From assembly GCA_963169045.1 (NCBI GenBank), contig CAUJDF010000002.1:62001-126000 (forward strand): DNA of 64,000 bases. Reading direction: 5' to 3'. Source of the DNA: Myxococcota bacterium. GTDB taxonomy: Bacteria > Myxococcota_A > Bradymonadia > UBA7976 > UBA1532. Each line of letters starts with the position of its first letter. Within the stretch, counting starts at the first letter, position 1. The notes under the pieces were generated by a model. It saw nothing but the letters and a program-made list of their open reading frames with translations. It was not told where the DNA came from and did not search any database. This document shows positions 8,727-27,026 of this stretch, in pieces. The position numbers and the translations under genes were made by a program.

Positions 8727-10121
8727 TCAGGGCGTCTCGCGCGCCTGGAGCTGCCGGCGCAGGGCCTCGACCTCGCGCTCGAGATCGCCCACGCGCGCGT
8801 CGACCTCGCGGAAGCGGCGCGCGAGCGCGGTGACGAAGCTGCCCATCCACGCGTTGAGGCCGAGCGCCTCGGTGAGCGCCGCCTCGCGGACCACCAGCAG
8901 CGTCACGTCGTCGACGGCGCGGATGCTCGCCGTGCGCGGCGCCCGCGTGAGGATGGCCGTCTCGCCGAACACCTCGCCGGGCCCCATGACCCGCAGCACG
9001 CGCGGCGCGCCGTCGGCGCCGCTCTTGAAGACCTCGCAGCGGCCCTTGCTGATGATGTACGCCGCTTCGCCGGGATCGCCCTCGTTCAGAATGACCGTGC
9101 CGGCCGCGAAGCTCTCGGCGGGCAGGTGCCAGCCGCCGCGCAGGAAGTCCTCGAGGGCGCGCTGCAGCTCGCCGGCGCCGGCGAAGCGGTCCGCCGGATC
9201 GGCGGCCATCGCGCGCATGGCGATGCGCGACAGCGCCGGCGGCACCCGCGGATCGATCTCCTCGGGCGTGAGGCAGCGCCGCTGCAGCGCCTGGATCAGG
9301 ACGGCGTAGTAGGTGCGGCCGTCGTACGGCGGCCGCCCGACCAGCAGGTGGTAGAGCGTGGCGCCCAGCGTGAACACGTCGCTGCGCTCGTCGACGAGCT
9401 CGTGGGCGCCGCGCGCCTGCTCCGGGGACATGTACGCGGGCGTCCCGATGACGTCGCCCGGCGCGTCGGTCTCGGTGATGGAGCCGCCGTCGCCTGCGGA
9501 CGGCGCCGCGCCACGGAGGCGGGCGACGCCCCAGTCCATCACGTAGACCTGCCCGAACTCGCCGACCATGATGTTCGACGGCTTCAGGTCGCGGTGGATC
9601 ACGCCCTTGCTGTGCGCGAAGGCGATCGCCTCGCAGCACTTGACGAACACCTGGAGCAGGTCGGCCAGGGTGTCGGGCTCGAGCCGTTCGGGCCCGGCGC
9701 GCTCGATGATCTGCTGCAGCGTCACGCCCTGGACCAGCTTCATGCTGAAGTACCAGCAGGCGTCGCCGCCGCTGCCCAGGTCGTGCACGGGCACGATGTT
9801 CGGGTGCTCGAGCTGGCCGGTGACGCGCGCCTCCTCGAGGAAGCGCGCGAGGCGCCGCTCATGGCCGCCGTGGCGCGGGTCGAGCACCTTGATCGCCAGC
9901 TCGCGCAGCAGGCGCTGATCGAAGACGCGCTGGACGGTGCCCATGCCGCCGCGCCCGATCTCGCCCAGCGTCACGAACCGCTCGTCGAAGCGCTCGCCGC
10001 CGGTCTGCACATCCGCCGGCGGGCAGACCACCACCGTCGACGGGGCGTCGACGCTCGGGGGCGGCGGTTGCTGGCGGAGCAGCCCGAGCCAGCGTTCCAG
10101 TCCACGCGTCATGGCCCCCAT
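8727..10121 (-). CDS. Ser/Thr protein kinase fused to a cyclic-nucleotide-binding domain
   Basis: The 464-residue soluble protein has an intact kinase domain (~48-330): GRGGMGTVQ, K78 in AIKVL, H176-R-D178-L-K-P-S-N183, and D196-W-G198 (DWG is a frequent variant in bacterial kinases). A cNMP-binding domain follows (~345-450: FAAGTVILNEGDPGEAAYIISKG in two parts, PGEVFGETAIL, PRTASIRA), then a short coiled coil. This arrangement resembles an inverted PKG, with kinase activity set by cAMP or cGMP. The sAC-type cyclase at 18960 could supply the ligand, an inference from the shared neighbourhood. Starts at 10121 or 10112 are both possible; the first is used. It is divergent from the cNMP/patatin gene with only ~49 bp between, so promoters may overlap. 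The dispersed repeat copy A begins just after its stop. Confidence 0.88.
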   Translation of the reverse strand: MGAMTRGLERWLGLLRQQPPPPSVDAPSTVVVCPPADVQTGGERFDERFVTLGEIGRGGMGTVQRVFDQRLLRELAIKVLDPRHGGHERRLARFLEEARVTGQLEHPNIVPVHDLGSGGDACWYFSMKLVQGVTLQQIIERAGPERLEPDTLADLLQVFVKCCEAIAFAHSKGVIHRDLKPSNIMVGEFGQVYVMDWGVARLRGAAPSAGDGGSITETDAPGDVIGTPAYMSPEQARGAHELVDERSDVFTLGATLYHLLVGRPPYDGRTYYAVLIQALQRRCLTPEEIDPRVPPALSRIAMRAMAADPADRFAGAGELQRALEDFLRGGWHLPAESFAAGTVILNEGDPGEAAYIISKGRCEVFKSGADGAPRVLRVMGPGEVFGETAILTRAPRTASIRAVDDVTLLVVREAALTEALGLNAWMGSFVTALARRFREVDARVGDLEREVEALRRQLQARETP

Positions 10122-10170
10122 GGAAACACGATTCCACTCACCGGTCGAGTCGTGGCATGGTCGCCGACCG

Positions 10171-12066
10171 ATGTCACACACTCGTGAGCCGGATACCCGC
10201 CGCCACATGGTGGCCGGCGTCGACAAGCGCGCCGTCGCCGCCCTGCGGCGCTCGCCGTTCTTCGAGCACGCCAGTGTCCGCCACCTGCGCGAGCTGCTCT
10301 TCGGCGCGACCTCGCTGAGCCTCGCCACCGGGGACCGGCTCTTCGACGAGGGTGCGTCGGCGGATGCCTTCTACGTGCTGCTCGCGGGCCGCCTCCAGTC
10401 GTGGACGACCGCCGAACGCCAAGGCACGAGCGGTCACGGCCTGCTGCGCGACGTCGGTGCGCCGGCCTGCGTCGGCGAGTCCGACGTGGTGCTGCAGCAT
10501 CGACGCAGCTGCACCGCCACCGCGCTCCAGCCCTCCCGCCTCGTTCGGATCGAGGCGAAGGCCTTCGCGGCGCTGCTCGATCGCTCGACGCCGTTCCGGC
10601 GCGCGGTGCGCGGCGTCCGCTTCGAGCAGGAGCGCGTGCGCGCCGTCACGCGCCACCACGACGCGACGAACGCCGAGCGCGTGGGCGTCCTCTCGCCGGC
10701 GCCGGACGTCCCCCTCGGCCCGCTCGTGGACCTGCTCGCCGCGGCGCTCGTCGCCCACCACCGCGAGCGGGTCCTCGTGATGCGCGCGCGGCGCGACGCC
10801 GACCCGCGCCTCGTCGACGGCGATCTCGCACCGCGGCCGGACGCGCCGACGATCGTCGACGTGGGGCCCGATCCCGCGTCGCTCTTCGACGGCCCCACGT
10901 GGAGCCGCATCGTCGACCGCTACGACTACGTCCTCGTCGACACCTCCGCGCTCCCCGCGGCGCAGGCCGCGCGGTTCCGGCCCCACTTCGACCGAGTCGT
11001 GACGGTGGTCCGCCGCGACGTCCCCGCGTACCGCGACCTGCGCGCGGGCTGCCGCCTGCAGCCGGTGGTCCTCGTCCCGCCGGAGGGCTGGGGCGCGTCG
11101 CCGCCGGCGCTCCCGGTTGGCGCGTGCCGGATCAAGCTGGAAACGGCGGAGCTCGTCGCTTCCGCGGGCCGGCTGGGGGCGCTCTCCGGGAGCGGCCGGG
11201 AAGCGATGGCCCGGTTCGCGCGGGGCGTGAGCGACCGGACCGTCGGCATCGCGCTCGGCGGCGGCGGCGCCTGGGGCTTCGCCCACGTGTCGCTCCTCCG
11301 GTTGCTCCGCGAGCGGGGCGTGCCGATCGACGTCGTCAGCGGCGCGAGCTTCGGCGCGGTCGTCGGCGCCTACTTCGCGCGTTACGCCGACGGGCTCGAG
11401 CGCCTGGAGCGCGGCGTCGCCGGGCTGCGTCGGGCCACCCTCCTGAGCGTCTTCGACTCCGGCGCCATCGAGCGCTTCATGCGCAGGGAGACGCCGGGCC
11501 ATCTCTCGGACCTCGACACGACGTTCCTGCCGGTCGCGACCGACGTCTCCGACGGGCACCTGCACGTCTTCCGCGACACCACCATCGCCCGCGCCGTCCG
11601 GGCGAGCGGGTCGTTCCCCTTCGCCTTCGCGGCGACGGTCGCGCGGCGGCCCGACGGCGTGAGGCGCTACGTCGACGGCGGCATCGCCAGCAACGTGCCC
11701 GACTCGGTCCTGGTCGAGGAGGGGGCCGACTTCGTCATCGCGTCCAACGTGGTGCCGCCGCCCGAGTCGATCCCCGCGTCGAAGCCCTGGTTCGGGGGCC
11801 CGGTCGGCACCTGGCTCAACGAGGTCAACCCGATCCTGCGACTGCGGGACGGCGTGCGCTCCGCCTTCATCCTCATGCACGCCGCCGGCGCCTCCGACGC
11901 CAGCCTCGCCGACGCGGTCCACAACAACGGCCCGCTCGACGAGATGCCCGGCGACTTCCACCGCGGCCCCGAGATCATGCGGGCCGTCGCCGAGCAGGTG
12001 CGCGAGTCTGCCGAGGAGATCGCCCGGAAGTGGGGCGAACGGGTCTTCGCGGAGCCCCGGTGCTGA
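10171..12066 (+). CDS. Patatin-like phospholipase with N-terminal cNMP-binding domain
   Basis: The 631-residue protein has a cNMP-binding-like domain (~20-145), a central region resembling a MinD/ParA ATPase without a P-loop (~165-330; YDYVLVDTSALP keeps the Walker B-like strand), and a patatin domain (~355-600). The lipase motifs are intact: oxyanion loop GGGGAWG from 363, nucleophile S393 in GASFG, and D502 in VDGGI. This is the neuropathy-target-esterase-like class of serine phospholipases acting on membrane lipids, with activity presumably set by a nucleotide ligand. The start is taken at 10171 (ATG); 10207 is an alternative. The next gene starts inside its stop codon (GTGCTGA), so the two are translationally coupled and homologous, probably from an old duplication. 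Confidence 0.85.
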   Translation: MSHTREPDTRRHMVAGVDKRAVAALRRSPFFEHASVRHLRELLFGATSLSLATGDRLFDEGASADAFYVLLAGRLQSWTTAERQGTSGHGLLRDVGAPACVGESDVVLQHRRSCTATALQPSRLVRIEAKAFAALLDRSTPFRRAVRGVRFEQERVRAVTRHHDATNAERVGVLSPAPDVPLGPLVDLLAAALVAHHRERVLVMRARRDADPRLVDGDLAPRPDAPTIVDVGPDPASLFDGPTWSRIVDRYDYVLVDTSALPAAQAARFRPHFDRVVTVVRRDVPAYRDLRAGCRLQPVVLVPPEGWGASPPALPVGACRIKLETAELVASAGRLGALSGSGREAMARFARGVSDRTVGIALGGGGAWGFAHVSLLRLLRERGVPIDVVSGASFGAVVGAYFARYADGLERLERGVAGLRRATLLSVFDSGAIERFMRRETPGHLSDLDTTFLPVATDVSDGHLHVFRDTTIARAVRASGSFPFAFAATVARRPDGVRRYVDGGIASNVPDSVLVEEGADFVIASNVVPPPESIPASKPWFGGPVGTWLNEVNPILRLRDGVRSAFILMHAAGASDASLADAVHNNGPLDEMPGDFHRGPEIMRAVAEQVRESAEEIARKWGERVFAEPRC

Positions 12067-14348
12067 CCCCCTCCCAGCTACACGATGACGGCCTCGACTG
12101 GCTGCTCGACCAGAGCTTCCTCGGCAAGCTCGCGCCCGAGGACCAGGCGGCGGTGCTGGCGGTGGCGGAGCTGCGCGACGTGCCCGAGGGCGCGGTGCTC
12201 ATCGAGCCGGGCACGCGCGGGCGCGAGGTGCACCTCGTCGTCGCGGGGCAGGCCGAGGTGTCCGTCAGCGACAGCGGGCGTACGCAGGCGCTCGCGCGCG
12301 TCGGCCCCGGGCGCCTGCTCGGGGAGCGCGCCGTCCGGCGTGGCGAGACGACGCGGGCCCGAGTGCGCGCCATCAGCGCCATGCGCACGCTGACCCTGCC
12401 CGCGCCGGCCTTCGCGGAGCTCATGGGCCGCATCCCGGCGCTGGCGCGGTACGTCGACGACCTCATCGAGCTGCGCGACCGCAGCGGCCTGCTGATGAAC
12501 CTGCTGCTGCGCGACCCGATCCTGCGCTCGCTGGGTCGCGAGGGCGTCGAGCGGCTGCTGCAGTCGGGCACCATCGTGCGCTGCGACGCGGGCCGGCGCA
12601 TCGTCACCGCCGGCGAGCGCGGGGCCGACGTGTTCCTCGTCGTGAAGGGTCGGGTGGCGGTCTACGTGCCCGCGCCGGGCGGCCGGCGCGAGCAGGTCTC
12701 GACCCACACCGCCGGCTGGTTCTTCGGCCACGCCTCGCTGCTGCTCGACGTGCCGCGCACCGCCGACATCGAGGCCGTCGAGCCGACGGAGCTGCTGCAG
12801 GTCAGCGACCGCGCCTTCATGCAGCTGATCGCGCGCAACCCGCCGCTGTACCGGCGCCTGTACGAGTCGCTGGCCAGCCTGCGGCTGCACGCCGACGAGG
12901 CGCTGTCGCGCAGCCGCGGACCGATGGTCGTCGCACTCTGGAGCGCGCAGCGCGACATCGGCACGACGACGCTCGCCTACGGGATGGCCGCGCACCTGGC
13001 GCTCGAGAGCGAGGTCACGCTGCTCGACCTCGAGGGCGCGCGCAGCGCGCGTCGGCTCGGCCTGGCGGTGACCGCCGGCCGGGTGGCGGGCATCCCGGTG
13101 CGCCGCGCGTCCACGCCGCCCGAGTGGCGCGTCGACATGCTCTGGCCGGAGGACCGGGCGCGCACCGCCGATCTCATCTCGGCGCTGAAGCAGCGGGCCG
13201 ACGATGGCGCGAGCATCGTGATCGCCCTGTCCGACGCCGAGCCGCCGGACGAGGCGACGGTGCGCGCGTCCGAGACGATCGTCTTCCTCCGGTGGGCCCA
13301 CGACGTCTCCGCCGGCCTGCCGCTGGACCACCTCGGCTTCCACGTCGACGCCGTCCGGCTCGAGGACGGCGTCGAGCTGCCGATGGCGGCGAGCCGCAAC
13401 GCGGTGCGCGTGCCGCACGACCCGGTGACGGGGCCGCGCTTCTGGCGGAGCGGCGACCTGCGGGCGCTGCGCGACGACGCCCGCCCGCTCGGCCGCGCCG
13501 CCGCGCGCCTCGTGCGCGTGCTGCGCGGCCGCACGGTCGGCGTGGCGCTCGGCGGCGGCGGCGCGCTCGGCTTCGCCCACGTCGCGCTGTTGCACGCCCT
13601 GGACGAGGCGAAGGTCCCCGTCGACTACGTGGCCGGCGTCTCGTTCGGCTCGCTCGTCGGCGCGCTGTACGCGAGCGGCGGCCTCGAGCTGTGCGAGAGC
13701 CTCATCCAGCGCCGGCGCGAGCTGCAGCGGCTCGTCAACCTCTGCTTCCTCTCGCTGACGCCGCTCGTGCGCTGGGTCGACGGCCTGACGCGCGGCCGGA
13801 CGCTCGGCACCACCGAGGTGCCGTTCTTCCCCGTCTCGCTCGACGTCGTGACCGGCCAGGAGGTGGTGATCACCCGCGGCACCGTCGCCGAGGGCATGCG
13901 CGCGTCGTCGTCCTTCCCCGGCCTGTTCCCGGCGCTCGCGCGCGGCGTGACCCGGCTCGTCGACGGCGGCATCGTCAACAACGTCCCCGCGTCGGTGGTG
14001 TGGGACGCGGGCGCCAACTTCATCATCGCGTCCAACATCATCCCCGCGCATCCGGTGGGCCGGGAGCCGCGGCTGACCGACAGCGTGGCGGCGCGCCTGC
14101 GCGGCGTGACCGTCGGGCGCCTCGACGACATCCTGCGCTCGGTCTTCCTCTTGATGTCGCAGACCGGGCGCGATCGGGCGACCCTCGCCGACTTCGTCTT
14201 CGACCTCGACCTCGAGGGCTACACCATCTACGACTTCCAGCGCGGCCACGAGATCTACGCGCGCGCCCTGGACCAGGCGCGCGCCGCCCTGCCCGATATC
14301 GTCGAGTTGCGGCAGGCGGAGCGGTCGATCCGGCTCGGCCAGCGGTAG
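12060..14348 (+). CDS. Patatin-like phospholipase with two cNMP-binding domains and a degenerate MinD-like domain
   Basis: The 762-residue protein has two cNMP-binding domains (~15-135 and ~150-270), a MinD/ParA-like segment (~285-430) and a patatin domain (~485-750). In the MinD-like part the Walker A Lys is replaced (QRDIGTTT where GGVGKTT is expected), followed by VTLLDLEG, so ATP hydrolysis is doubtful. The patatin motifs are intact: GGGGALGFAH, S528 in GVSFG and D635 in VDGGI. It is likely a cyclic-nucleotide-responsive phospholipase or lysophospholipase at the membrane. The start is a GTG at 12060 that overlaps the upstream stop TGA; no ATG gives the full first domain. It shares its architecture with the preceding gene but carries an extra cNMP-binding domain. 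Confidence 0.87.
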   Translation: MLTPSQLHDDGLDWLLDQSFLGKLAPEDQAAVLAVAELRDVPEGAVLIEPGTRGREVHLVVAGQAEVSVSDSGRTQALARVGPGRLLGERAVRRGETTRARVRAISAMRTLTLPAPAFAELMGRIPALARYVDDLIELRDRSGLLMNLLLRDPILRSLGREGVERLLQSGTIVRCDAGRRIVTAGERGADVFLVVKGRVAVYVPAPGGRREQVSTHTAGWFFGHASLLLDVPRTADIEAVEPTELLQVSDRAFMQLIARNPPLYRRLYESLASLRLHADEALSRSRGPMVVALWSAQRDIGTTTLAYGMAAHLALESEVTLLDLEGARSARRLGLAVTAGRVAGIPVRRASTPPEWRVDMLWPEDRARTADLISALKQRADDGASIVIALSDAEPPDEATVRASETIVFLRWAHDVSAGLPLDHLGFHVDAVRLEDGVELPMAASRNAVRVPHDPVTGPRFWRSGDLRALRDDARPLGRAAARLVRVLRGRTVGVALGGGGALGFAHVALLHALDEAKVPVDYVAGVSFGSLVGALYASGGLELCESLIQRRRELQRLVNLCFLSLTPLVRWVDGLTRGRTLGTTEVPFFPVSLDVVTGQEVVITRGTVAEGMRASSSFPGLFPALARGVTRLVDGGIVNNVPASVVWDAGANFIIASNIIPAHPVGREPRLTDSVAARLRGVTVGRLDDILRSVFLLMSQTGRDRATLADFVFDLDLEGYTIYDFQRGHEIYARALDQARAALPDIVELRQAERSIRLGQR

Positions 14349-14408
14349 GCGCCACCCCGAGTCGTGCCGCCGTTGCGACGCGACGCCACAAGTGGCAGCC
14401 TCCGCCGA

Positions 14409-15251
14409 GTGGGAACCCCGCTCACCTTCGACGACGTGCGGCGCCTCGCGTGTCCGCGCTGCCGCGGCGCGCTCGCATACGACGGCCCGTCGCGTGACGG
14501 CCTCCGCTGCGGCGCCTGCGGTGGCGGCTGGCCTGTCGAGCGGGGGCTGCCGCGCCTGTTCGACGAGAGCGCCGTCCGCGGCACCGACCGGCTGATGCGC
14601 CTCTTCTACGACGGCCTGCCGGCGCTCCACGACCCGGTCGTGCGCCTGATGCTGCCGCTCATCCAGGGCGTCGGCGAGCGGGAGATGCGCGCGTTCTACG
14701 TGCGGCGCCTCGAGCTCGACCGGCTCGCGCCGCGCGCCGACGGCGGCCCCCCGCGGATCCTCGAGATCGGCGTCGGCTGCGGCGCCAACGTACCGCTCGT
14801 TCGGCAGGGGCTGCCGGTGGGTCTCGAGGCCGAGCTGTGGGGCTGCGACCTCAGCGCCGGCATGCTCGGGCAGCTGCGCCGCCGGCTGCCGCGGCGGGGC
14901 GTACCGGTGCCGCGGCTCGTGCAGGCCGACGCCCACGCGCTCCCCTTCCCCGACGGGGCGTTCGATCGCGTCTTTCATGTCGGCGGCATCGGCGCCTACC
15001 GCGACCCGCGCGCGGCGCTGGCCGAGATGGCGCGCGTCGCCGTCCCCGGCACGCCGATCGTCGTCGTCGACGAGCAGGTCGACGCGAACGCGCGGCTGAA
15101 CCCCTTGCAGTACGCGCTGTTCCGCGCGTTCACGTTCTACGACCGGCGCCCGCACTGCCCGGTCGAGCACCTGCCGCGCGGCGCCACCGACGTGCGCGAG
15201 GAGCAGGCGGGGCCCGCGTTCTACTGCCTCACGTTCCGCGTGCCGGGGTGA
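14409..15251 (+). CDS. SAM-dependent methyltransferase with N-terminal zinc ribbon
   Basis: The 280-residue protein starts with a Trm112-like zinc ribbon (CPRC ... CGAC, residues ~12-40) and continues with a class I methyltransferase fold. Motif I is ILEIGVGCGAN (~117-127), then the acidic WGCDLSAGML and post-motif DAHALPFPDGAFDRVF. This arrangement is shared by UbiE/COQ5-related and lipid or small-molecule methyltransferases; the substrate cannot be read from the sequence. The GTG at 14409 is preferred; another GTG at 14364 would add 15 residues without improving the domain. Its stop overlaps the start of the following membrane protein (GTGA), so the two are coupled. A lipid substrate would fit the patatin genes before and the KAS III-like cluster after it, but that is positional inference. 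Confidence 0.78.
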   Translation: MGTPLTFDDVRRLACPRCRGALAYDGPSRDGLRCGACGGGWPVERGLPRLFDESAVRGTDRLMRLFYDGLPALHDPVVRLMLPLIQGVGEREMRAFYVRRLELDRLAPRADGGPPRILEIGVGCGANVPLVRQGLPVGLEAELWGCDLSAGMLGQLRRRLPRRGVPVPRLVQADAHALPFPDGAFDRVFHVGGIGAYRDPRAALAEMARVAVPGTPIVVVDEQVDANARLNPLQYALFRAFTFYDRRPHCPVEHLPRGATDVREEQAGPAFYCLTFRVPG

Positions 15252-15856
15252 GCGCCCCGCCGGCGCCCGGTCCCGTCGAACGCGAGGCGGTCCTCCGCGC
15301 GTTCGCGGCCGCCCGCGCCGAGCCGCTCCCACCCGGTCGGGGCGCCACCGGCAGCCTGCTCGTCACCCTCGCGCTGGCCGTCGTCATCGGCGTCGCGGCG
15401 ACGGCGGGCGTCCTCGGCTTCGCGCTGCCCGGCGCCGTCGCCGCCGCCGTCTACGGCCTGCCCGCCGTCCTCTTCGCCGCCGGCGTCTGGATGATCATGT
15501 CCCGGCGTCCGCGGGAGCAGGTCCTCGAGGAGCGCGCCGAGGCCGCGCTGGGCGACCTGGCGGCGGTCGATCCCGCCGCCGATCCGCGCCGCACGCTCGA
15601 GTTGTCCGCCCGCGTCCTCGCCTTCGCGCTGCCGCGCGGCGACGACCCCGGCGCGCCGGCGCTCGACCCCGCCGAGGCCGCCGACCGCGCCGGCGCGGCG
15701 CTCTCCTGGCTCGAGGCCGCCGAGCGCGTCCTCATCGACGCCGGCCACGCGGAGCCCACCTTCAGCAGCCCCGCCGTCGGCGACACGATCTTCGAAGCCC
15801 CGCCCGGCGACACCGTCTTCGACATGCCGCCGCTCTCCGACGAAGGCCGCTCCTGA
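15248..15856 (+). CDS. Small membrane protein, function unknown
   Basis: The 202-residue protein has two predicted transmembrane helices close together (~37-60 and ~62-90) and a soluble C-terminal region of ~110 residues. That region has helices rich in Ala, Glu and Arg and ends in short repeated motifs (DTIFEAPPGDTVFDMPP). The repeat of DT[IV]F and acidic residues suggests a disordered binding tail. No family was recognised. The GTG at 15248 overlaps the methyltransferase stop (GTGA), which fixes the start and suggests a joint function. A perfect GC palindrome (15857-15868) follows the stop but has no T run. Confidence 0.7.
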   Translation: MSAPPAPGPVEREAVLRAFAAARAEPLPPGRGATGSLLVTLALAVVIGVAATAGVLGFALPGAVAAAVYGLPAVLFAAGVWMIMSRRPREQVLEERAEAALGDLAAVDPAADPRRTLELSARVLAFALPRGDDPGAPALDPAEAADRAGAALSWLEAAERVLIDAGHAEPTFSSPAVGDTIFEAPPGDTVFDMPPLSDEGRS

Positions 15857-15942: not shown

Positions 15943-16914
15943 GTGCTGACCGCGGGGATCCTGGGGACGGCGACCGTGCTTCGCGGCCGCTTGCGCGGCA
16001 CGGCCGAGGTCGGCGCGGAGGCGATGCCCGACCGTCCGGCCGCGGTCCTGCGGCGCCTCACCGGCATCGAGACGCGGTACTGGCTCGACGCGGAGACGAC
16101 GGTCGCGGCGCTGGCCTGCGAGGCGCTCCGCGGCGCCCTCGACCGCGCCCGCCTCGCCCCCGAAGCCCTCGAGCGCGTCATCCTCGTCACCTCGACCGGC
16201 GGCGACACGCTCGTCCCCGCGAGCGTCAACGCGGTGATCGCCGGCCTCGGCCTCGACGGCCGCGCCGACGGCTTCGACCTCAACAACGCATGCACCGGCT
16301 TCCTCAGCGCCTTCGACGTGGCCGCGCGCTGTGTCGCCACCGGCAGCGGTCCGATCGGCATCGCGGTCGTCGAGACGCTGACGCGCTTCCTCTCGCCGGC
16401 GCACCCGCGCCCCTACATGGTGTTCGGCGACGCGGCGATGGCGGCGGTGGTCGGGCCGGCGGCTTCGGGCGGCGTCCACGCCACGCACTTCGGGAACGTC
16501 GGCGCCCACCGCGGCGCGGTCGTCCTCGGCCACCCCGGCTGGGCGGGCACCCTCACGTGCTTCGAGTTCGAGAGCTCGCGCGACGAGCTGCTCGACCTCG
16601 CGCGGGGCGCGCTGCAGAAGAGCGCCGACCGCGTGCTCGCCGCCGCCGGGCTGCGCCTCGACGAGGTGGAGTGGGTGGTGCTGCACCAGCCGAACGGATC
16701 GATGCTCCAGGCGCTCATCCGCGGCCTGGGCATCGACCCGGCCCGAGTCGTGCCCGTGGTCGAGGCCATCGGCAGCGTCGGCGCGGCGTCGGTGGCGGTG
16801 AGCCTCGACCGTCTGTTGCGCGAGCGCCCGGTGGCACCGGGCGATCGCATCCTGATGATGGCGGTGGGCGCCGGCATGTCCTACGGCGCCGTGCTCTACG
16901 AGGTGGGTCGATGA
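15943..16914 (+). CDS. KAS III-like beta-ketoacyl synthase, FabH/OleA superfamily
   Basis: The 323-residue thiolase-fold protein has the active-site Cys117 (NNACTGF) and His248 (LHQPNGS). Both lie within five residues of E. coli FabH C112 and H244. The third FabH residue, Asn274, aligns with Ser278 (AIGSVGAAS). The N-terminal LTAGILGTAT and the C-terminal AVGAGMSYGAVLYE fit the family. The Cys would take an acyl group from acyl-CoA or acyl-ACP; a non-Asn site suggests non-decarboxylating acyl transfer or an unusual condensation rather than ordinary FabH work. The GTG at 15943 is chosen because the family motif begins there; a GTG at 15901 adds 14 atypical residues. It opens a four-gene coupled cluster and overlaps the next start (ATGA). 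Confidence 0.82.
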   Translation: MLTAGILGTATVLRGRLRGTAEVGAEAMPDRPAAVLRRLTGIETRYWLDAETTVAALACEALRGALDRARLAPEALERVILVTSTGGDTLVPASVNAVIAGLGLDGRADGFDLNNACTGFLSAFDVAARCVATGSGPIGIAVVETLTRFLSPAHPRPYMVFGDAAMAAVVGPAASGGVHATHFGNVGAHRGAVVLGHPGWAGTLTCFEFESSRDELLDLARGALQKSADRVLAAAGLRLDEVEWVVLHQPNGSMLQALIRGLGIDPARVVPVVEAIGSVGAASVAVSLDRLLRERPVAPGDRILMMAVGAGMSYGAVLYEVGR

Positions 16915-17642
16915 CGCCGGGCGCCGCCGCCGCGCGCGAGGCCTGGCTGCGCTATTGGCGCCTGCAGCAGCGCTGGCACCGCTACACGGTCGAAGGCTTC
17001 GAGCACCTCACCGGACCGCCGGCGCTCATCGTCGGCTACCACGGTCGCTCGATCGCCCGCGACCTGTGCATGTTCACCGCCTACGCCCACGACCGCCTGG
17101 GATACCTGCCCCACGCCTTCTTCCATCGCGCCTTCGCCGAGAACCCGGTCCTGCGCGCCGTCCTCGAGGGGGTCGGAGGCGTGACGAGCGACGACGGGTC
17201 CGTTGCCGCCGCCGTCGCGCGCGGCGAGCACCTGATCGTGACGCCCGGCGGCACCCGCGAGGGCTGCCGCAGCTTCCGCGACCGCTACCGCGTCGACTGG
17301 GGCCGCCGCACCGGCTATCTCAAGCTCGCGCTGAAGTACGGGCTCGACGTCATCCCCGCCGCCGCCCACGGTACCGACGACACCTACGTCGGCCTCAACG
17401 ACGGGGACGCGTGGAGCCGCCGGCTGCGCCTGCCGCTGGGCCTGCCGGTGTGGGTGGGCCTGGGACCGCTGGGACCCTGGCCGCTGTCGCCCCCCTTCCC
17501 CGTTCGCATCCGGCAGGTCCTGGGGCCGCGCATCGCCCTGCCCCGCGTCGCCGCCGGCGATCGGGACGCCCTCGCCGCGCTGCACGACGAGGTGGCGGGC
17601 GCCGTGCAGGGGCTGCTCGACGGCGCGAGGGGCGCCGCGTGA
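16911..17642 (+). CDS. PlsC/DGAT-like acyltransferase (TMEM68-like)
   Basis: The 243-residue protein resembles the lysophospholipid/diacylglycerol acyltransferase superfamily. It has a His motif (GYHGRSIARD, residues ~42-51), HAFFHRAF, and the typical LIVTPGGTREG segment (~102-112) where related proteins have PGG-x-RE. The spacing between His and Asp is longer than HX4D, so catalysis should be checked. It would transfer an acyl group to a lipid acceptor at the membrane. The ATG at 16911 overlaps the KAS III-like stop (ATGA), and the next gene starts inside its stop (GTGA). This tight coupling implies it handles the product of the condensing enzyme. The acceptor is unknown. Confidence 0.75.
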   Translation: MTPGAAAAREAWLRYWRLQQRWHRYTVEGFEHLTGPPALIVGYHGRSIARDLCMFTAYAHDRLGYLPHAFFHRAFAENPVLRAVLEGVGGVTSDDGSVAAAVARGEHLIVTPGGTREGCRSFRDRYRVDWGRRTGYLKLALKYGLDVIPAAAHGTDDTYVGLNDGDAWSRRLRLPLGLPVWVGLGPLGPWPLSPPFPVRIRQVLGPRIALPRVAAGDRDALAALHDEVAGAVQGLLDGARGAA

Positions 17643-18457
17643 GCTGGGCCGTCGTCCTCGGCGCCACGTCGGGTGCCGGCGAAGCCATCGCGCGGGAGGT
17701 CGTGCGGCGACCCGGGCTCGATCTGTTCGGCGTGCACCGCGGCAACCACCTCTCGGCCGCCGAGGCGCTCGAGCAACACGCCGGAGACAGCGGCCGCGCC
17801 GTCCACCTGCGCCGCGCCGACGCCGGCACCGCCGCCGCCGCCGAAGCCGGCGCCGACGAGCTCCTCGCCGTCGCCGGACCCCACAGCGTGCGTCTGTTCG
17901 TCCACGCCATCGCCAACGCCTCGATCGGTCTGTTCGTGCACGGCGAGCAGTGGCTCCGGCCCGACCAGATCGAGCGCACCTTCGCCAGCATGGCGCACTC
18001 CTTCGTCTGGTGGGCACAGGCGCTCGTGAAGCGAGATCTGCTGCACCCGGGCGGCGCCCGCCTGCTGGGGCTCACGAGCCCGCTCGGCGAGTCGCTCATC
18101 CGCAACACCGGCGTCGTCTCGGCGGCGAAGGGCGCGCTCGAGGTCTACGTGCGCCACCTCGCGTTCGAGCTCGGCCCGCGCGGCCACCGCGTCAACCTGC
18201 TGAAGTACGGCGCGACCCGCACGACAGCGCTCGGCCGCGTGCTCGACGACGGCACGCTGGGACGCCTCGATCGCATGCTGCAGCGCATGACACCGGCGCG
18301 GCGCCCCTGCTCGCTCGAGGAGGTGGCGCGCTTCGTGACCGTGCTCGCCGGCGAGGAGGGCGCGTGGTTCAACGGCGCCACCATCGACTTCACCGGCGGC
18401 GAGGTCCAGAGCCTGTACGACCTGGTGGTGCACCCCGACGCGGAGGCGCTCGAGTGA
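17639..18457 (+). CDS. Short-chain dehydrogenase, FabI-like, catalytic Tyr replaced
   Basis: The 272-residue Rossmann protein has an N-terminal nucleotide-binding motif (GATSGAGEAIA, ~9-19) and a FabI-like active-site region. Aligned with E. coli FabI (Y156, K163 in IPNYNVMGLAK), it reads IRNT157GVVSAAK164. The Lys is kept and the Tyr is Thr157. The other FabI Tyr (Y146) aligns with Pro148. The C-terminal FNGATIDFTGG segment fits SDR proteins. Either it uses another residue for protonation or it binds substrate without reducing it. The GTG at 17639 overlaps the acyltransferase stop, and its own stop overlaps the next GTG. By position it should act on the KAS III-like product. Confidence 0.75.
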   Translation: MSWAVVLGATSGAGEAIAREVVRRPGLDLFGVHRGNHLSAAEALEQHAGDSGRAVHLRRADAGTAAAAEAGADELLAVAGPHSVRLFVHAIANASIGLFVHGEQWLRPDQIERTFASMAHSFVWWAQALVKRDLLHPGGARLLGLTSPLGESLIRNTGVVSAAKGALEVYVRHLAFELGPRGHRVNLLKYGATRTTALGRVLDDGTLGRLDRMLQRMTPARRPCSLEEVARFVTVLAGEEGAWFNGATIDFTGGEVQSLYDLVVHPDAEALE

Positions 18458-18918
18458 CGACCGACGACATGACCGGCTTCCTGACCGACGAGCAGCTCGA
18501 CGCGCTCCGCCGTGGCTACGACCGCGACGTGATGCTGCGGGCGGCGGTCGGCAACGTGGCCATGCACTATGCAGGCATCGCCCCCCTGATGGACTTCTTC
18601 CGCAGCGAGATCTACGACCCCGACAAGATGGATCCCCAGCACCGGCAGCGTTGCCTGCTGGCCATCCTGGCGACGAAGCACCACCCGCTCACGCTGAGCG
18701 TGCACGTCTACTGGAGCCTCGCCGAGGGTCTGTCGCTGCGCGATGTGTATCAGGTGCTTCTCGTGGCGGCCGCATATGCCGGCATCGACGCGTTCGCCAC
18801 GTCGGCGTTCACGCTGAAGGTACAGACGCTGCCTCTCTTGAAGCGGCTCATCGACGAGGGCGGCGACGCGATCGCGACCCCCAATGTGGTGCGGGCGCTG
18901 GTGGCGGCCTTCGCGTGA
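18454..18918 (+). CDS. Carboxymuconolactone decarboxylase/AhpD-fold-like protein without CxxC
   Basis: The 154-residue all-helical protein resembles the carboxymuconolactone decarboxylase family (RQRCLLAILATKHH followed by VHVYWSL, then GLSLRDVYQVLLVAAAYAGI). The AhpD-type CxxC is absent, so a peroxidase role is unlikely; the His residues near KHHPLTLSVHV could be catalytic. It is the last member of the coupled cluster (GTG at 18454 overlapping the SDR stop). A lyase, decarboxylase or isomerase step is possible but not shown by the sequence. An internal ATG at 18469 would remove five residues. It ends 41 bp before the cyclase gene. Confidence 0.65.
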   Translation: MTTDDMTGFLTDEQLDALRRGYDRDVMLRAAVGNVAMHYAGIAPLMDFFRSEIYDPDKMDPQHRQRCLLAILATKHHPLTLSVHVYWSLAEGLSLRDVYQVLLVAAAYAGIDAFATSAFTLKVQTLPLLKRLIDEGGDAIATPNVVRALVAAFA

Positions 18919-18959: not shown

Positions 18960-21900
18960 ATGGATCTCAGCCGTTACACGCCCGAGCAGGTCCGCCGCCG
19001 CCTCGCCGTCGATCCGGCGGCGCCCCGCGAGCCGCAGGTCGAGGCCTTCACGGCGGCGGTGCTCTGGGCCGACATCTCCGGCTTCACGCCGCTGACCGAG
19101 CGCCTCGTCGCCGCGGGGCCCAGCGGCGTCGAAGCGCTCACCGAGATCCTCAACCGGTACTACGGTCGCCTGATCGACCTCGTCCACGCCGCCGGCGGCG
19201 ACATCACCCAGTTCGAGGGCGACGCCATCCTGGCGGTCTGGCCGATCGGCGAGGGCGGCGACCTCGGCGAGGCCACGGTGCGGGCCGCCCAGTGCGCGCT
19301 CGCCATCCAGCGCGAGCTGCACGGCTTCGAGGTGGCCGAGGGCGTGCGCCTCTCGCAGCGTGTGGCGATCGCCGCCGGACCGATGCGCTTCCTTTGGGTC
19401 GGGGGGGTGCTCTCCCGCTGGACGTTCGTCGCCGCCGGCGAGCCGCTCGTCCAGGTGCAGGCCATCGACCATCAGGTCGATCCGGGCCAGGTCGTCGTCT
19501 CCATGCCGGCGTGGACGCGCATCTCGACGCGTTGCCGCGGTCGCCAGCTGCCCACGGGCGCCGTCCAGCTCGAGGCCGTGGAGCAGTCGGTCCCGCCGCG
19601 GGCCCTCGAGCGCGTCGACGTGCCCGAGGGGGCGCTGCCGGTGGTGCGCATGTTCCTGCCGGGCGCGGTGCTGTCGCGCATGCAGGGCCACAGCCGCTGG
19701 CTGGCCGAGCTGCGCACCATCTCGGTGCTGTTCGTGCAGCTGCCCGACCTCGACCCGCGGACCGACGACGTCGCCGCGCGCGCGCAGCAGGTCGTCGAGC
19801 AGGTCCAGCACGCGGTCTACCGGCTCGGCGGCTCCATCGACAAGCTGAGCATGGCCGACAAGGGCGCGACGCTGCTGGCCGGCTTCGGCCTGCCGCCGCT
19901 CGCCCACGAGGACGACCCCACGCGGGCCGTCCAGGCGGCCCAGGCCATCGTCGAGCGCCTGCAGGCCCTCGGCATGCGCGCCCACATCGGCGTGACGACG
20001 GGCCCGGTCTTCTGCGGGCTGCTCGGCAGCGAGCTGCGCTGTGAGTACGCGACGTTGGGACGCCCGGTGAACCTCGCGTCGCGGCTGATGCAGCTCGGCG
20101 AGCCGGTGCTCGTCGACGAGGCCACCTACCAGGCCTCGCGCAAGCGTCTCGGCTACGAGCCGCTCCCGCCGGTCCAGGTGAAGGGCGTGCCCGAGCCGGT
20201 CGCCGTTTTCCGGCCGACGGGCGAGGAGCGCGCCGTCGTGCGGCCGCCCACCGACATCATCGGCCGCGCCGCCGAGCTCGACGCGATCTCGGCGCGCCTG
20301 CAGGCCCTGGTGCGCGCTGGCGCCGACGGCGTGCTGATCGTCGAGGGCGAGGCGGGCATCGGCAAGTCGCGGCTCGTGGGCGAGGCCGTGAAGCGGGCGC
20401 GCGATCTCGGCGTGCGCGTGCTGTGGGCCGAGGCCCACGCCATCGAGCGCGACACCGCCTACTACCCGTGGCGCGCGGTGGTGCTCGATCTGCTCGACGT
20501 GCACGAAGCCCGCGATCCGCAGGTCATCCGCCGCGCCGTCGAGCGCGAGCTGTCACCGGAGCCGGCGCTGCTGCGCCTGGCGCCGCTGCTGAGTGCGCTG
20601 CTGCCGATCGACCTGCCCGACAACGCGGACACGGCGCAGATGCACGGCGAGGTGCGCGCCGCCAACACGCTGCACCTGCTCAGCCGTCTCGTGCAGCGCG
20701 CGGCCACCGACCGGCCCGTCCTGCTCGTCGTCGAGGACGCCCACTGGCTCGACTCGCCCTCGTGGGCCGTGACGGCGCGTGTCGTGCGCGACGTGCACCC
20801 GCTGCTGACGCTGGTCGCCACACGCCCCTTCGCCGAGGGCGTCCCCGCCGAGTTCGCCCAGCTCGTGGCGCGGCCCGACGCGACGCACCTGCGCCTCGAG
20901 AACCTCGACCCCGAGCAGACGATCCAGCTCGTGCGCCAGCGCCTCGGCGTCGTCCACCTGCCCGACGAGGTGGGCGCGATGCTCATCGCCAAGTCGGGGG
21001 GCAATCCGTTCTTCACCGAGGAGCTGGCGTTCGCGCTGCGCGACTCCGGCAAGCTGCTGATCGACAACGGCACCTGCGGCCTCGCGCCGGGCGAGGACCT
21101 CGAGAGCCTGTCGCTGCCGGCGACGGTGCAGGGCGCCATCATCAGCCGCGTCGATCGCCTCTCGCCGTCGCAGCAACTGCTGTTGAAGGTCGCCAGCGTC
21201 ATCGGGCGCGAGTTCGCGCAGGCGACGCTCGAGGATGTCTATCCCAGCGAAGAGACGGGGGATCACGTCACGGACGTGCTCCCGTCGGTGCTGTATCTCG
21301 ACATCATCCTGCGGGAGTCGCTCGGCGAGGCCGCCTGGTACATCTTCAAGCACGTGCTCAGCCAGGAGGCCATCTACGGCCTGATGCTGTTCGCGCAGCG
21401 ACGCGAGCTGCACGGCCGCGTGGCGCGCTGGTACGAGCAGACGTCGGCGAGCGTCGAGGAGCTGGCCGCGCGCTATCCCCTGCTCGCGTACCACTGGTCG
21501 CGGGCCGAGGATCCCGCGCGCGCCGTCCACTACCTGCAGAAGGCCGGCGAGCAGGCGCTCAGCCGCTCCGCCAACCACGAGGCGGTGCGCTTCTTCGACC
21601 GCGGGCTGAAGCTGTGCGCGGCGCACCCCGCCGTGGCGACGCCCGAGCGCCTGCGCGTCATGCAGGAGGGCCTCGCCCTCGCGCACCACGGCGCAGGCGA
21701 CATGGACGCGTGCATGGAGCACGGGCTCAAGGCGCTCGAGCTGCTGGGGCGCCCGTCGGCCGCCACGCGCGCCGAGCTCGCCGTGGGCTTGCTCGGCCAG
21801 GTGGCCCTCCGCACGCTGCAGGGAGCCTGGCCCGACCTCTTCGCCGAGCGCGATCCCGAGAACCGCGAGCGGCGGCTCGCCGCGGCGCGCCTCGAGAACA

Positions 21901-22988
21901 AGTTCAGCGAAATCGCGGTGTTCCGCGAAGAGAACGTCCGCTGCCTCTACTCGGCGCTCCGCCAGATCAACGTCGCGCACCCCGCCGGCCCCTCGGCGGA
22001 GCTCGGACGCGCCTACGCCGTGATGTCGACCATGCTCGGCACGGTGCCCCTGCCGCGCATCGCCGACGCATGGGTCGGGCGCGCGCTCGACATGGCGAAC
22101 CGCATCGACTCGCAGCTCCACCGCGCCTACATCTACAACCGCGCGGCCTGCTACGAGCTCTACCGCGCCCGGTGGGACAACGTGTACCGGCTCATGGCCG
22201 AGATCATGGACACCACCGAGCGCCTCGGCGACACGCGGCTGCACGAGGAGAACCTCGTGGTGGTGGGCCTCGCCGACCAGTACACCGGCAAGCTCGCGTC
22301 GTCGATCGGGGTGATGGAGCGGCTCCGGTTCGCGGCGCGGTCGAGCGGCAACCACCAGACGCAGTTCTGGGGCCTCGTCGGCCGGGCCGAGTGCCTGGCG
22401 CGCCTCGGCCGCGCAGAAGAGGCGCTGGCCCACTGCGACGAGTTCGCGTCCTGGCTCGAGAGCGGCGCGCAGTCCTCGGAGCGCGTCTGGGGCTACGCGA
22501 CGCGCGCCCTCGTCTGCCTGCGGCTCGGCCGCGACGACGACGCCCTGCGCTGGGCCGATCGCGTGCGCGACCTCTACCTCGGCGCGCGTCCGGTCGCCTT
22601 CTGGAACCAGCAGACGGCCCCCTGCTGCGCCGAGGTGTACGCCACGCTCCTGCGGCGCCGGGGCGACAGCGCGCTGCGCGGCCGGTTGCGCCTCGCGGTG
22701 AAGACGGCGCGCACCTTCGGCGGCATCTTCCCGTTCGGCGCCGCCGTCGGCGAGTACTGGAGCGCGGTCGAGGCGTGGCTCGACGGCCACCGCCGCCTGG
22801 CCTTCGCGCTCTGGAGAAGGGCGATCGCCGTTGCCGAGCGCAACGGACAGTCCTACGAGCAGGGCCTCGCCCACCGCGACCTCGGCCGCCACCTGCCCGA
22901 CGGACCCGAGCGTGACGGCCACGCCGTCCGCGGGCGGGCCCTGCTGCAGCAGTGCGGCGCCACGCCCGACCTCGACGCGATCAACTGA
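18960..22988 (+). CDS. Soluble-adenylyl-cyclase-like protein: two cyclase domains, ATPase and TPR-like region
   Basis: The 1342-residue protein has two class III cyclase domains (~28-190 and ~250-420), a STAND/AAA ATPase (~430-680; Walker A GEAGIGKS with K469, Walker B VLLVVEDAHW) and a long helical TPR-like region to the end. Domain 1 has the metal Asp residues D38 (ADISGFT) and D88 (FEGDA). Domain 2 has a Gln in place of the metal Asp (LFVQLPD) but supplies K301 (ADKGAT), N371 and R375 (VNLASRLM). This is the same division of labour as in human ADCY10, where C1 gives metal sites and C2 the Lys/Asn/Arg. It should make cAMP in the cytosol. Bicarbonate or calcium control is possible by analogy. 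Four or more cNMP-binding domains nearby are plausible readers of its product. Confidence 0.88.
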   Translation: MDLSRYTPEQVRRRLAVDPAAPREPQVEAFTAAVLWADISGFTPLTERLVAAGPSGVEALTEILNRYYGRLIDLVHAAGGDITQFEGDAILAVWPIGEGGDLGEATVRAAQCALAIQRELHGFEVAEGVRLSQRVAIAAGPMRFLWVGGVLSRWTFVAAGEPLVQVQAIDHQVDPGQVVVSMPAWTRISTRCRGRQLPTGAVQLEAVEQSVPPRALERVDVPEGALPVVRMFLPGAVLSRMQGHSRWLAELRTISVLFVQLPDLDPRTDDVAARAQQVVEQVQHAVYRLGGSIDKLSMADKGATLLAGFGLPPLAHEDDPTRAVQAAQAIVERLQALGMRAHIGVTTGPVFCGLLGSELRCEYATLGRPVNLASRLMQLGEPVLVDEATYQASRKRLGYEPLPPVQVKGVPEPVAVFRPTGEERAVVRPPTDIIGRAAELDAISARLQALVRAGADGVLIVEGEAGIGKSRLVGEAVKRARDLGVRVLWAEAHAIERDTAYYPWRAVVLDLLDVHEARDPQVIRRAVERELSPEPALLRLAPLLSALLPIDLPDNADTAQMHGEVRAANTLHLLSRLVQRAATDRPVLLVVEDAHWLDSPSWAVTARVVRDVHPLLTLVATRPFAEGVPAEFAQLVARPDATHLRLENLDPEQTIQLVRQRLGVVHLPDEVGAMLIAKSGGNPFFTEELAFALRDSGKLLIDNGTCGLAPGEDLESLSLPATVQGAIISRVDRLSPSQQLLLKVASVIGREFAQATLEDVYPSEETGDHVTDVLPSVLYLDIILRESLGEAAWYIFKHVLSQEAIYGLMLFAQRRELHGRVARWYEQTSASVEELAARYPLLAYHWSRAEDPARAVHYLQKAGEQALSRSANHEAVRFFDRGLKLCAAHPAVATPERLRVMQEGLALAHHGAGDMDACMEHGLKALELLGRPSAATRAELAVGLLGQVALRTLQGAWPDLFAERDPENRERRLAAARLENKFSEIAVFREENVRCLYSALRQINVAHPAGPSAELGRAYAVMSTMLGTVPLPRIADAWVGRALDMANRIDSQLHRAYIYNRAACYELYRARWDNVYRLMAEIMDTTERLGDTRLHEENLVVVGLADQYTGKLASSIGVMERLRFAARSSGNHQTQFWGLVGRAECLARLGRAEEALAHCDEFASWLESGAQSSERVWGYATRALVCLRLGRDDDALRWADRVRDLYLGARPVAFWNQQTAPCCAEVYATLLRRRGDSALRGRLRLAVKTARTFGGIFPFGAAVGEYWSAVEAWLDGHRRLAFALWRRAIAVAERNGQSYEQGLAHRDLGRHLPDGPERDGHAVRGRALLQQCGATPDLDAIN

Positions 22989-23006: not shown

Positions 23007-25328
23007 CTACCGGTTGCAGGCGCAGGCCAGGTGGCAGGCGTGGAAGCGGAAGTTGAGGTCGGGGTTGCCGTTGTTGGCACCCCAGTTGGTGTTGTTGTCG
23101 GTCGAGCAGCACTCGACCGAGACCCAGTTGCCGCCGTTTCGCTTCTGCGGGAAGAAGTTGCGGCAGATCGCGTTTCCGGAGTGTCGCATCGCGGCGACGT
23201 TCACCCCGCCGCGCGCGCCGCAGAACTGGTTGCACGACTGGTTCCGCGCCGACGTGTACCAGCAGCCGTTGATGCCATTGCCCGGGTTGAGCAGCCGCCC
23301 GGCGCACCGGTTCACACACACGTGGTTCTGGCACGTCTGGTTGGCCGCGCATCCCGCGTCGTTGCGGCACCCGTTGCGGCACGTGTGGGCCGCCACGTCG
23401 CACCACTGGTTCGCGGGGCAGCCGTTGTCGTTGCGGCACCCGTTGCGGCACGTGTGCGCGCCCACGTCGCACCACTGGTGGGCCGGACAGACGTTGTCGC
23501 TGCGACAGCCCGGGACGCACTGGTGGTTGTTGCACCACTCGTTCGCCGCGCAGTTGTTGTCGGTGCGGCAGCCGGGGACGCAGTAGCCCCGCCCGCCGTC
23601 GCACCACTTGTCGGCCGGGCAGTTCGCGTCGGCCGCGCAGTCGCAGATGATGCTGCCGTCGGCCGCGAGACCCACCATCTTGCGGCCCACGGCGCAGGCC
23701 TGTAGCTGCCCGCCGCCGCCGCCGACGACCCCGCAGGTCGTCACGCCGTTGGCGGCGATCGACACGAGTGCCTGCCCGTTGGGACAGCGCTGCGCCGGCA
23801 GGGCGCCGAGACCGATGTCGTCGACCTCGCAGACCGGGTTCAGGTTTGCGTCGAAGCCCCGGAAGCTCTGTCCCGCCGGGCACGTGACGTTGACGCAGCG
23901 GGCGTTGCCGTTGGCGTCGGTGCCGAACATCATCGAGCCGTTCGGGCAGGCGTACTGCGGGCGGCGCAGCAGGTTGCCGTTGCCGTCGAACACTTGCACG
24001 TTGCCGACGAAGATGCCGCCGAGCCCCGCGCGCACCGAGCCCTGGGCGCCGGCCTGCACGTTCCCGCCGGCGGTGACCGATCCCCCCGCGGTGAGGTTCT
24101 GCGCGGCGGCGATCGACGCGGCGGCGGAGATGCTCCCGCCCGACTGCAGGTCACCGGTGCGCATGGCGCCGATGAAGTCGGTGGCGTTGCTGAGGTTCAC
24201 GTCCCCCCGCAGCGTCAGGTTGCCCGTGAAGACCACGTTGCCGTTCACGGTCGACAGGTTGGCGTTGGTGACCACGGCGTTCGTGCTGAAGAACGACGTG
24301 GACCGGACCGTGGTCGCCTGCACCTCCTGGGAGGAGACGACGTTGCCATCGGCGGACACGCGCCCGCTGACATCGAGGTCGCCGGTGACGATCGTGCGGC
24401 TCTCGAGGCTGATGGGGTCGTCGTTGCGCAAGCGCAGGTAGCCGTCGCGGTTGGCGCCGTCGGGCGGGGAGACGACGATCGATGCGCCCGTCCCGTCGAA
24501 CGTGATGCCCTCGTTCGGCCCCGGATCATTGAAGCGGAGCTGGTTCACGCCGACGATGTTGCTGTTGTTCATCTCGAGCGCGTTGCGCGCGTCGGGGCCC
24601 GTCATCTGGACGCGCCCGCCCTGCATGATCACGTTGCCGCCGTTCATCGTGAGGTGGCCCACCTTGGTGTCGGCGGCGTCCTTGCGCACGTAGGTCAGCA
24701 GCGTGGGATCGGCCTGCAGGCGCTGGACGACCAGCGGCACCGCCTCGCCCGGATCGAGCGGCGGTCCCGCCGCCCCCGCGGGACCCTGGGGGCCCGCCGC
24801 CCCCCGCGGCCCGGCAGGACCCGCCGGTCCGGCCGGGCCGGCCGGGCCCTGCAACCCGGCCACCGGGCCCACCCAGCGACCGTTCGCGTCGATGACCACC
24901 CCGCCGCCGACGCTCACGGAGTGGGGCGTGATGTCGCCGACGACGTTGTCCGCCAGCATGGCGGCGGGCACCTTGCGCAGCATCGTGCGCGGCACGAGCT
25001 CGGGCCGACCGTCGATCGAGATGCCGAGGAAGACATCGCCCCGGAAGGCCGCCGCCGCGAGCGGGCGGGAGCTGCCGACACCGACGGCGTAGTAGCCCTC
25101 GACGAGGTCGACGTCGCGGAACGTCTCGTCGTGAATCACCATGCCGCCGGCGGCGCGGTCCCAGAGGCGCACCCGGAGGGTGTGCGCCCCCTCGAGCGGG
25201 TCGCCGTCCTCGTCGACGATCAGCCCCTCCTGCGCGAACTCGTTCGGGAGCGCCACCGCATCCGCCGGCCATCCCATCGCCAGCAGACAGACCAGGCCGA
25301 AGGCCCGTCCAATGAGATCGCGTCGCAT
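23007..25328 (-). CDS. Secreted collagen-like protein with fibre-like middle and Cys-module tail
   Basis: The 773-residue protein has a signal peptide, an N-terminal domain (~25-150; PLEGAHTLRVRLWDRA recalls beta-sandwich domains of bacterial surface proteins), a short Gly-x-y collagen-like stretch (~162-196), and a long repetitive beta region (~210-500) with tail-fibre-like motifs (GNLTLRGDVNL, GGSVTAGGNV). A C-terminal region with Cys modules (CPADKWCDGGRGYCVPGC and four or five similar units) and a final Cys-rich domain complete it. This suggests a trimeric surface fibre or adhesin. The Cys modules resemble those of the giant protein at 36526. The ATG at 25328 is only 10 bp after the stop of the upstream TSP3 lipoprotein gene, so they form one operon. 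Its stop is 18 bp from the convergent cyclase stop. Confidence 0.8.
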   Translation of the reverse strand: MRRDLIGRAFGLVCLLAMGWPADAVALPNEFAQEGLIVDEDGDPLEGAHTLRVRLWDRAAGGMVIHDETFRDVDLVEGYYAVGVGSSRPLAAAAFRGDVFLGISIDGRPELVPRTMLRKVPAAMLADNVVGDITPHSVSVGGGVVIDANGRWVGPVAGLQGPAGPAGPAGPAGPRGAAGPQGPAGAAGPPLDPGEAVPLVVQRLQADPTLLTYVRKDAADTKVGHLTMNGGNVIMQGGRVQMTGPDARNALEMNNSNIVGVNQLRFNDPGPNEGITFDGTGASIVVSPPDGANRDGYLRLRNDDPISLESRTIVTGDLDVSGRVSADGNVVSSQEVQATTVRSTSFFSTNAVVTNANLSTVNGNVVFTGNLTLRGDVNLSNATDFIGAMRTGDLQSGGSISAAASIAAAQNLTAGGSVTAGGNVQAGAQGSVRAGLGGIFVGNVQVFDGNGNLLRRPQYACPNGSMMFGTDANGNARCVNVTCPAGQSFRGFDANLNPVCEVDDIGLGALPAQRCPNGQALVSIAANGVTTCGVVGGGGGQLQACAVGRKMVGLAADGSIICDCAADANCPADKWCDGGRGYCVPGCRTDNNCAANEWCNNHQCVPGCRSDNVCPAHQWCDVGAHTCRNGCRNDNGCPANQWCDVAAHTCRNGCRNDAGCAANQTCQNHVCVNRCAGRLLNPGNGINGCWYTSARNQSCNQFCGARGGVNVAAMRHSGNAICRNFFPQKRNGGNWVSVECCSTDNNTNWGANNGNPDLNFRFHACHLACACNR

Positions 25329-25338
25329 CGGCCCCCCC

Positions 25339-26964: not shown

Positions 26965-26993
26965 GGGTACCTCCCCGGTGAAAAATTCCACCA

Positions 26994-27012
26994 GCACAAG
27001 ATCAGCTTGTGC
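26994..27012. promoter_or_regulatory. operator-like perfect inverted repeat in the promoter
   Basis: GCACAAG (26994-27000), ATCAG, CTTGTGC (27006-27012): seven-base arms with a five-base centre, 19 bp in all. It covers the -10 and part of the spacer, where a bound regulator would block RNA polymerase. The spacing fits a dimeric helix-turn-helix protein. No regulator gene adjoins it, so the binder is unknown. Confidence 0.5.
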
Positions 27013-27026
27013 ACGAAACATGTCAA
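26998..27026 (-). promoter_or_regulatory. sigma70-type promoter of the TSP3/collagen-like operon
   Basis: On the minus strand, a perfect -35 TTGACA (27021-27026) and GATCTT (26998-27003, three of six) are separated by 17 bp. The region is much more AT-rich than its surroundings. Transcription would start ~25-30 nt before the GTG at 26964. The -10 overlaps the inverted repeat at 26994-27012. Confidence 0.5.

Follow-up and report, generated by a model that had tools for sequence, protein, structure and literature searches.

A four-gene cluster of Myxococcota with a tyrosine-less FabI-like protein, a probable accessory lipid pathway

The closest described counterparts of the gene cluster analyzed here come from separate protein families. 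FabH and BioZ represent the ketoacyl synthase III (KS III) fold family, in which FabH carries a Cys-His-Asn triad, while FabI and InhA are related to the short-chain dehydrogenase/reductases (SDRs), the active site of FabI reading Tyr-x6-Lys. The Y158F variant of InhA keeps 1.8% of kcat with hydride still transferred, and Y158S drops to 0.16% (PMC6222099); the role of the Tyr as proton donor in InhA is debated (PMC9260719). The acyltransferase TMEM68 uses a His-Asp dyad to make triacylglycerol (PMC9916437). The CMD family includes AhpD-type proteins, which have a CxxC redox pair, and PcaC. The locus described below joins relatives of these proteins in a set of four overlapping genes and, judged by sequence comparison, probably encodes not ordinary fatty-acid synthesis but a real, uncharacterized accessory lipid pathway.

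Gene content and flanking genes

All coordinates are positions in the window, that is, the whole analyzed stretch of 64,000 nt. The genes of the cluster and those probably associated with it are listed below.

10207–12066, + strand: cNMP-binding domain and patatin lipase (GASFG and DGG kept), probable associated gene
12063–14348, + strand: two cNMP-binding domains and patatin lipase (GVSFG and DGG kept), probable associated gene
14364–15251, + strand: class I SAM methyltransferase with CxxC...CxxC N-terminus, probable associated gene, beside the cluster in many relatives
15943–16914, + strand: KS III-like condensing enzyme (KS), 323 aa; Cys117 and His248 kept, Ser278 at the position of FabH Asn274
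16911–17642, + strand: DAGAT/TMEM68-like acyltransferase (AT), 243 aa; GYHGRxxAxD (H44, D51) and PGGxxE conserved in the family
17639–18457, + strand: FabI-like SDR, 272 aa; Thr157, Ser147 at the Tyr146 position, K164 and Gly-rich motif kept
18454–18918, + strand: PcaC/CMD-like all-helical protein, 154 aa; no CxxC; H84, Y86 and W87 invariant
18960–22988, + strand: class III cyclase domains with AAA_16 and TPR, 1342 aa, probable associated regulator

The four ORFs from KS to the CMD-like protein are joined by three 4-bp stop/start overlaps (ATGA, GTGA, GTGA) on the + strand, where a preliminary description of this DNA had placed them. These ORFs share their codon-position GC profile with neighboring genes, third-position values being 0.90–0.95, and are for that reason taken to be real genes. 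The KS III, acyltransferase, SDR and CMD assignments of the preliminary description are likewise supported by domain matches, with E-values of 5e-24 for ACP_syn_III_C, 7e-7 for DAGAT, 3e-25 for adh_short_C2 and 2e-5 for CMD.

In the large protein downstream of the cluster, inspection by eye finds both metal-binding Asp residues in the first cyclase domain and N-x3-R in the second, motifs from which the cyclase-AAA-TPR layout may be read as a paired-domain adenylate cyclase. With two cyclase domains of split catalytic residues, an ATPase and TPR, this protein resembles mammalian soluble adenylyl cyclase. In relatives, the corresponding regulator combines AAA-TPR with either a Ser/Thr kinase, the form found in many, or a cyclase. 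Genes related to cyclic nucleotides are concentrated in this part of the window: the class III cyclase lies near the two cNMP-patatin genes, and these are adjoined by a gene for a Ser/Thr kinase fused to a cNMP-binding domain (8727–10328, - strand). Between the methyltransferase and KS genes, positions 15239–15856 (+ strand) encode a small protein with a hydrophobic stretch and no Pfam match. Beyond the regulator, adjacent genes at 23007–27021 (- strand) give a collagen-like match and encode a long repeat protein rich in Asp, with a DGDGD pattern.

Distribution and separation from housekeeping fatty-acid synthesis

Orthologs were called by a KS profile search at E <= 1e-60 in two samples, 96 relatives and 379 Myxococcota genomes. 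Matches at this threshold occur in 13/96 and 39/379 genomes, respectively, counts that include the source genome and, among the 39, one genome (G369) whose sole match is an ordinary FabH. Two FabH loci that pass the threshold, L080 and L081, were used as outgroups. The conserved neighborhood that the preliminary description had proposed to look for in other genomes is clearly present. Where 4 kb or more of sequence follows the ortholog, AT is found within 4 kb of KS in 31/32, SDR in 28/32 and CMD in 20/32. Where both flanks reach 7 kb or more, 15/17 orthologs have a match to a kinase- or cyclase-type regulator within 8 kb of KS, 12/17 a patatin and 10/17 a methyltransferase. None of these six gene types (AT, SDR, CMD, regulator, patatin or methyltransferase) lies near the two ordinary FabH loci. 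The same families were recovered by de novo clustering of all neighborhood ORFs with no prior choice, and the CMD, methyltransferase and patatin genes are not universal among the clusters. A peptide-pattern scan of GTDB genomes based on the SDR found true relatives in at least two Corallococcus species and at least two MAGs; the MAG loci L006 and L007 have a KS-AT-SDR-CMD gene order identical to that of the window, and in Corallococcus the SDR lies ~6 kb away from AT. A search of plasmids for close relatives found none, with a best KS match of ~31% and one weak AT match. A matching cluster is not described in the papers searched, most subscription papers being outside that search.

Pairwise identities of KS, AT, SDR, CMD and methyltransferase are correlated (r 0.74–0.90; Mantel 0/999), genome kinship not being controlled for; among distant pairs, with the same limit, the correlation is weaker, mostly 0.3–0.65, and absent for SDR-CMD. 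Two KS copies per genome were seen in G265 (L059) and G374 (L048/L074), and the SDR match of L059 is divided between two frames, possibly through a frameshift or an assembly error. In the KS tree, the genes of f1, the taxonomic family to which the window's source belongs (L051, L053, L058, L063, L066, L070, L072), fall into several separate clades, a scatter that suggests horizontal transfer or differential loss.

The source genome encodes a separate FabI with both tyrosines on another contig, scoring 299 bits and thus slightly below the curated cut-off of 337, and two other KS III genes, also on another contig, one of which (L001) has the ordinary Cys-His-Asn. No ACP is found near the cluster, and carrier-protein domains were detected only on other contigs of the genome. 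Because an intact FabI, another Cys-His-Asn KS III and carrier proteins are thus encoded on other contigs, the cluster is considered distinct from housekeeping synthesis. A KS III gene beside an SDR and an acyltransferase does bear a superficial resemblance to the plsX-fabH-fabD-fabG-acpP operon. The idea of an ordinary duplicate of that operon is nevertheless largely refuted and very improbable: the acyltransferase belongs to the DAGAT family and not to PlsX or FabD, the ACP and PlsX/FabD neighbors of the operon are missing, FabI and further KS III genes lie elsewhere in the genome, KS and SDR both score far below the FabH and FabI cut-offs (see below), and the SDR lacks the Tyr. The preliminary description had proposed a pathway with its own chemistry, marked by a joint change of key residues; its separateness from fatty-acid synthesis stands, and the joint change as a signature does not, as the following section details.

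Active-site residues of the four proteins

Both the ACP_syn_III and the ACP_syn_III_C domains of KS are above cut-off. The protein shares with FabH and BioZ the fold family, the catalytic Cys and His, the HQPN loop and ~30% identity. It differs in forming its own clade (100/99) relative to the FabH outgroups, in having Ser or Asn at the Asn274 position, in scoring below both curated FabH models (160.9 against a cut-off of 249 bits and 141.6 against 292.1 bits), and in having no ACP nearby. Alignment confirmed that Ser278 corresponds to FabH Asn274, so that the window protein lacks the full Cys-His-Asn triad, and that Cys117 and His248 are kept, as they are in 41/41 and 42/42 of the KS sequences covering each position. 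The use of Ser278 as a diagnostic residue fails. Position 278 is Ser in 28 sequences and Asn in 14, the latter including the two FabH outgroups, which leaves 12 in-family orthologs with the ordinary Asn; homologous clusters of this kind, which the preliminary description had named as evidence against its proposal, are found in clades f12 and f29. In a KS tree built with column 278 left out, the Ser/Asn distribution needs two changes. One reading, which on a tree with long branches is not proof, has Asn in a basal clade, a change to Ser after it, and Asn once more in clade f12.

The SDR has the Rossmann fold and Gly-rich cofactor motif of its superfamily and shares both with FabI and InhA, along with an invariant Lys (K164, 35/35) and a gapless alignment through the active-site segment. 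It nevertheless scores far below the curated FabI models, with at most 44 bits against cut-offs of 337–477, and does not have the Tyr-x6-Lys of FabI, Thr157 standing at the Tyr156 position and the Lys kept at 164, as the preliminary alignment had it. Across the 35 SDRs the Tyr156 position is occupied by Phe (12), Thr (10), Leu (5), Cys (3), Gly (2), Ala (2) or Trp (1) and by Tyr in none; homologs with an ordinary Tyr, which would have counted against the preliminary proposal, are thus not found, and of the joint residue change the SDR half holds and the KS half does not. The equivalent of Tyr146 had been placed one residue off, at Pro148: gapless alignments to E. coli FabI and to the FabI of the source genome put it at Ser147, a position that is Asn in 34/35 members, the Ser being that of the window SDR. 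H89, S121, W125 and R184 are invariant. In the predicted model of the SDR the mean pLDDT is 58 over residues 150–160 and below 50 at 150–153, and active-site geometry is not argued from it.

The acyltransferase scores 28.9 bits against the Pfam DAGAT (PF03982) cut-off of 22, and H44 and D51 are kept in all 37 members covering them. TMEM68 is the nearest characterized type, a likeness to the TMEM68/DGAT2 type (PF03982) that extends beyond the domain score to the His...Asp dyad and the PGG motif. The two differ in dyad spacing, the acyltransferase having His-x6-Asp and TMEM68 His129/Asp135, or x5 (PMC9916437).

The CMD-like protein is only 29–32% identical to its relatives in other clusters, and His84, Tyr86 and Trp87 are invariant in the family. 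It resembles PcaC in a CMD domain just above cut-off, in conserved R64 and H84, and in a predicted helical fold whose nearest match is the PcaC-type protein 2af7, albeit with weak E-values; it differs in falling far under the PcaC equivalog cut-off (26 against 155.7 bits). From AhpD it differs in having no CxxC, the pair being absent at that site in 23/23 members, and the candidate role of a CxxC peroxidase was rejected for that reason. The absence reported in the preliminary description is therefore correct; the significance attached to it is not upheld, as it agrees with a place among the PcaC-like members of the family.

Candidate pathway and competing readings

The chances are put at about even that the cluster serves a dedicated accessory lipid pathway of Myxococcota that is under signal control and stands apart from housekeeping FAS-II. 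The most likely reading of its chemistry, by analogy with characterized enzymes, is an acyl-modifying pathway finishing in an ester lipid, since TMEM68 makes triacylglycerol and C=C reduction is still possible without Tyr. The four clusters with an additional canonical YxxxK SDR, and the PapA-type ORF seen in one of them (see below), also count in favor of the pathway. KS, with its Cys-His pair intact, would condense an acyl thioester, and the SDR would reduce an activated, enoyl-type C=C rather than a ketone, taking the proton from water while Lys holds NAD(P)H. The acyl chain so modified would then be joined to a lipid alcohol as an ester by the acyltransferase. Trimming or decoration of the product may fall to the PcaC-like protein and the methyltransferase, and the patatins, under cyclic-nucleotide control, could supply or recycle acyl chains. 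Genes for a dehydratase, an acyl-CoA ligase and an ACP are absent from the cluster, and the enoyl substrate must for this reason come from elsewhere. The residual activity of the InhA Tyr mutants indicates that loss of the Tyr makes enoyl reduction costly but leaves it chemically possible. A conserved gene set that has its own regulators and is present in ~10% of sampled Myxococcota, including Corallococcus, points to an unrecognized lipid in a group known for lipid signaling and development.

Other roles can be considered for KS and for the locus as a whole. As a CerJ/ChlB-type acyl transferase or an OleA-type head-to-head condensing enzyme, KS would yield an ester or a hydrocarbon with no malonyl extension. 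This is unlikely, although the third catalytic residue varies between Ser and Asn, the cluster is without ACP, and structure entries that we take to be OleA are among the KS matches; FabH and BioZ outscore these entries, and OleB/C/D-like genes are absent among the shared neighbors. CerJ-type enzymes have Asp at the third catalytic position, a residue found there in no member. The class III cyclase near cNMP-binding patatins, together with matches of the PADLOC models PycC and PycTIR to the cyclase and cNMP domains, recalls a Pycsar/CBASS-like cyclic-nucleotide defense system. Membership in such a system is rejected as highly improbable: the PADLOC matches cover only those shared domains and include neither a TIR nor a TM effector of the Pycsar kind, the cyclase is a 1342-aa cyclase-AAA-TPR protein that many relatives replace with kinase-AAA-TPR, and none of the PADLOC models matches any of the four lipid genes.

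A further proposal is that the SDR reduces its substrate without a catalytic Tyr through Lys164 and Asn147 or a bound water, making an undescribed class of Myxococcota lipid under a signal-regulated gene set; it is put forward tentatively. A serious rival to the pathway reading, though a less probable one, takes the SDR as a pseudoenzyme that partners KS or AT as a nucleotide sensor or a scaffold, with the chemistry done by those two only. The Tyr position is so variable (F/T/L/C/G/A/W) in the 35 sequences, with fold and cofactor-side residues conserved, that the protein may be non-catalytic, and four clusters add a canonical YxxxK SDR able to do the reduction. That second SDR is absent from most clusters, however, and the invariance of K164, H89, S121, W125 and R184, together with the nearly invariant Asn147, suggests an active site under selection. 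The 35 natural Tyr-less SDRs offer a natural test of the need for Tyr in FabI-type reduction, still debated for InhA. The loci in which a canonical YxxxK SDR adjoins the Tyr-less one are L047, L050, L055 and L056; these loci have a group of ORFs in common, and an L050 member of that group matches the PapA-type family of ester-forming acyltransferases.
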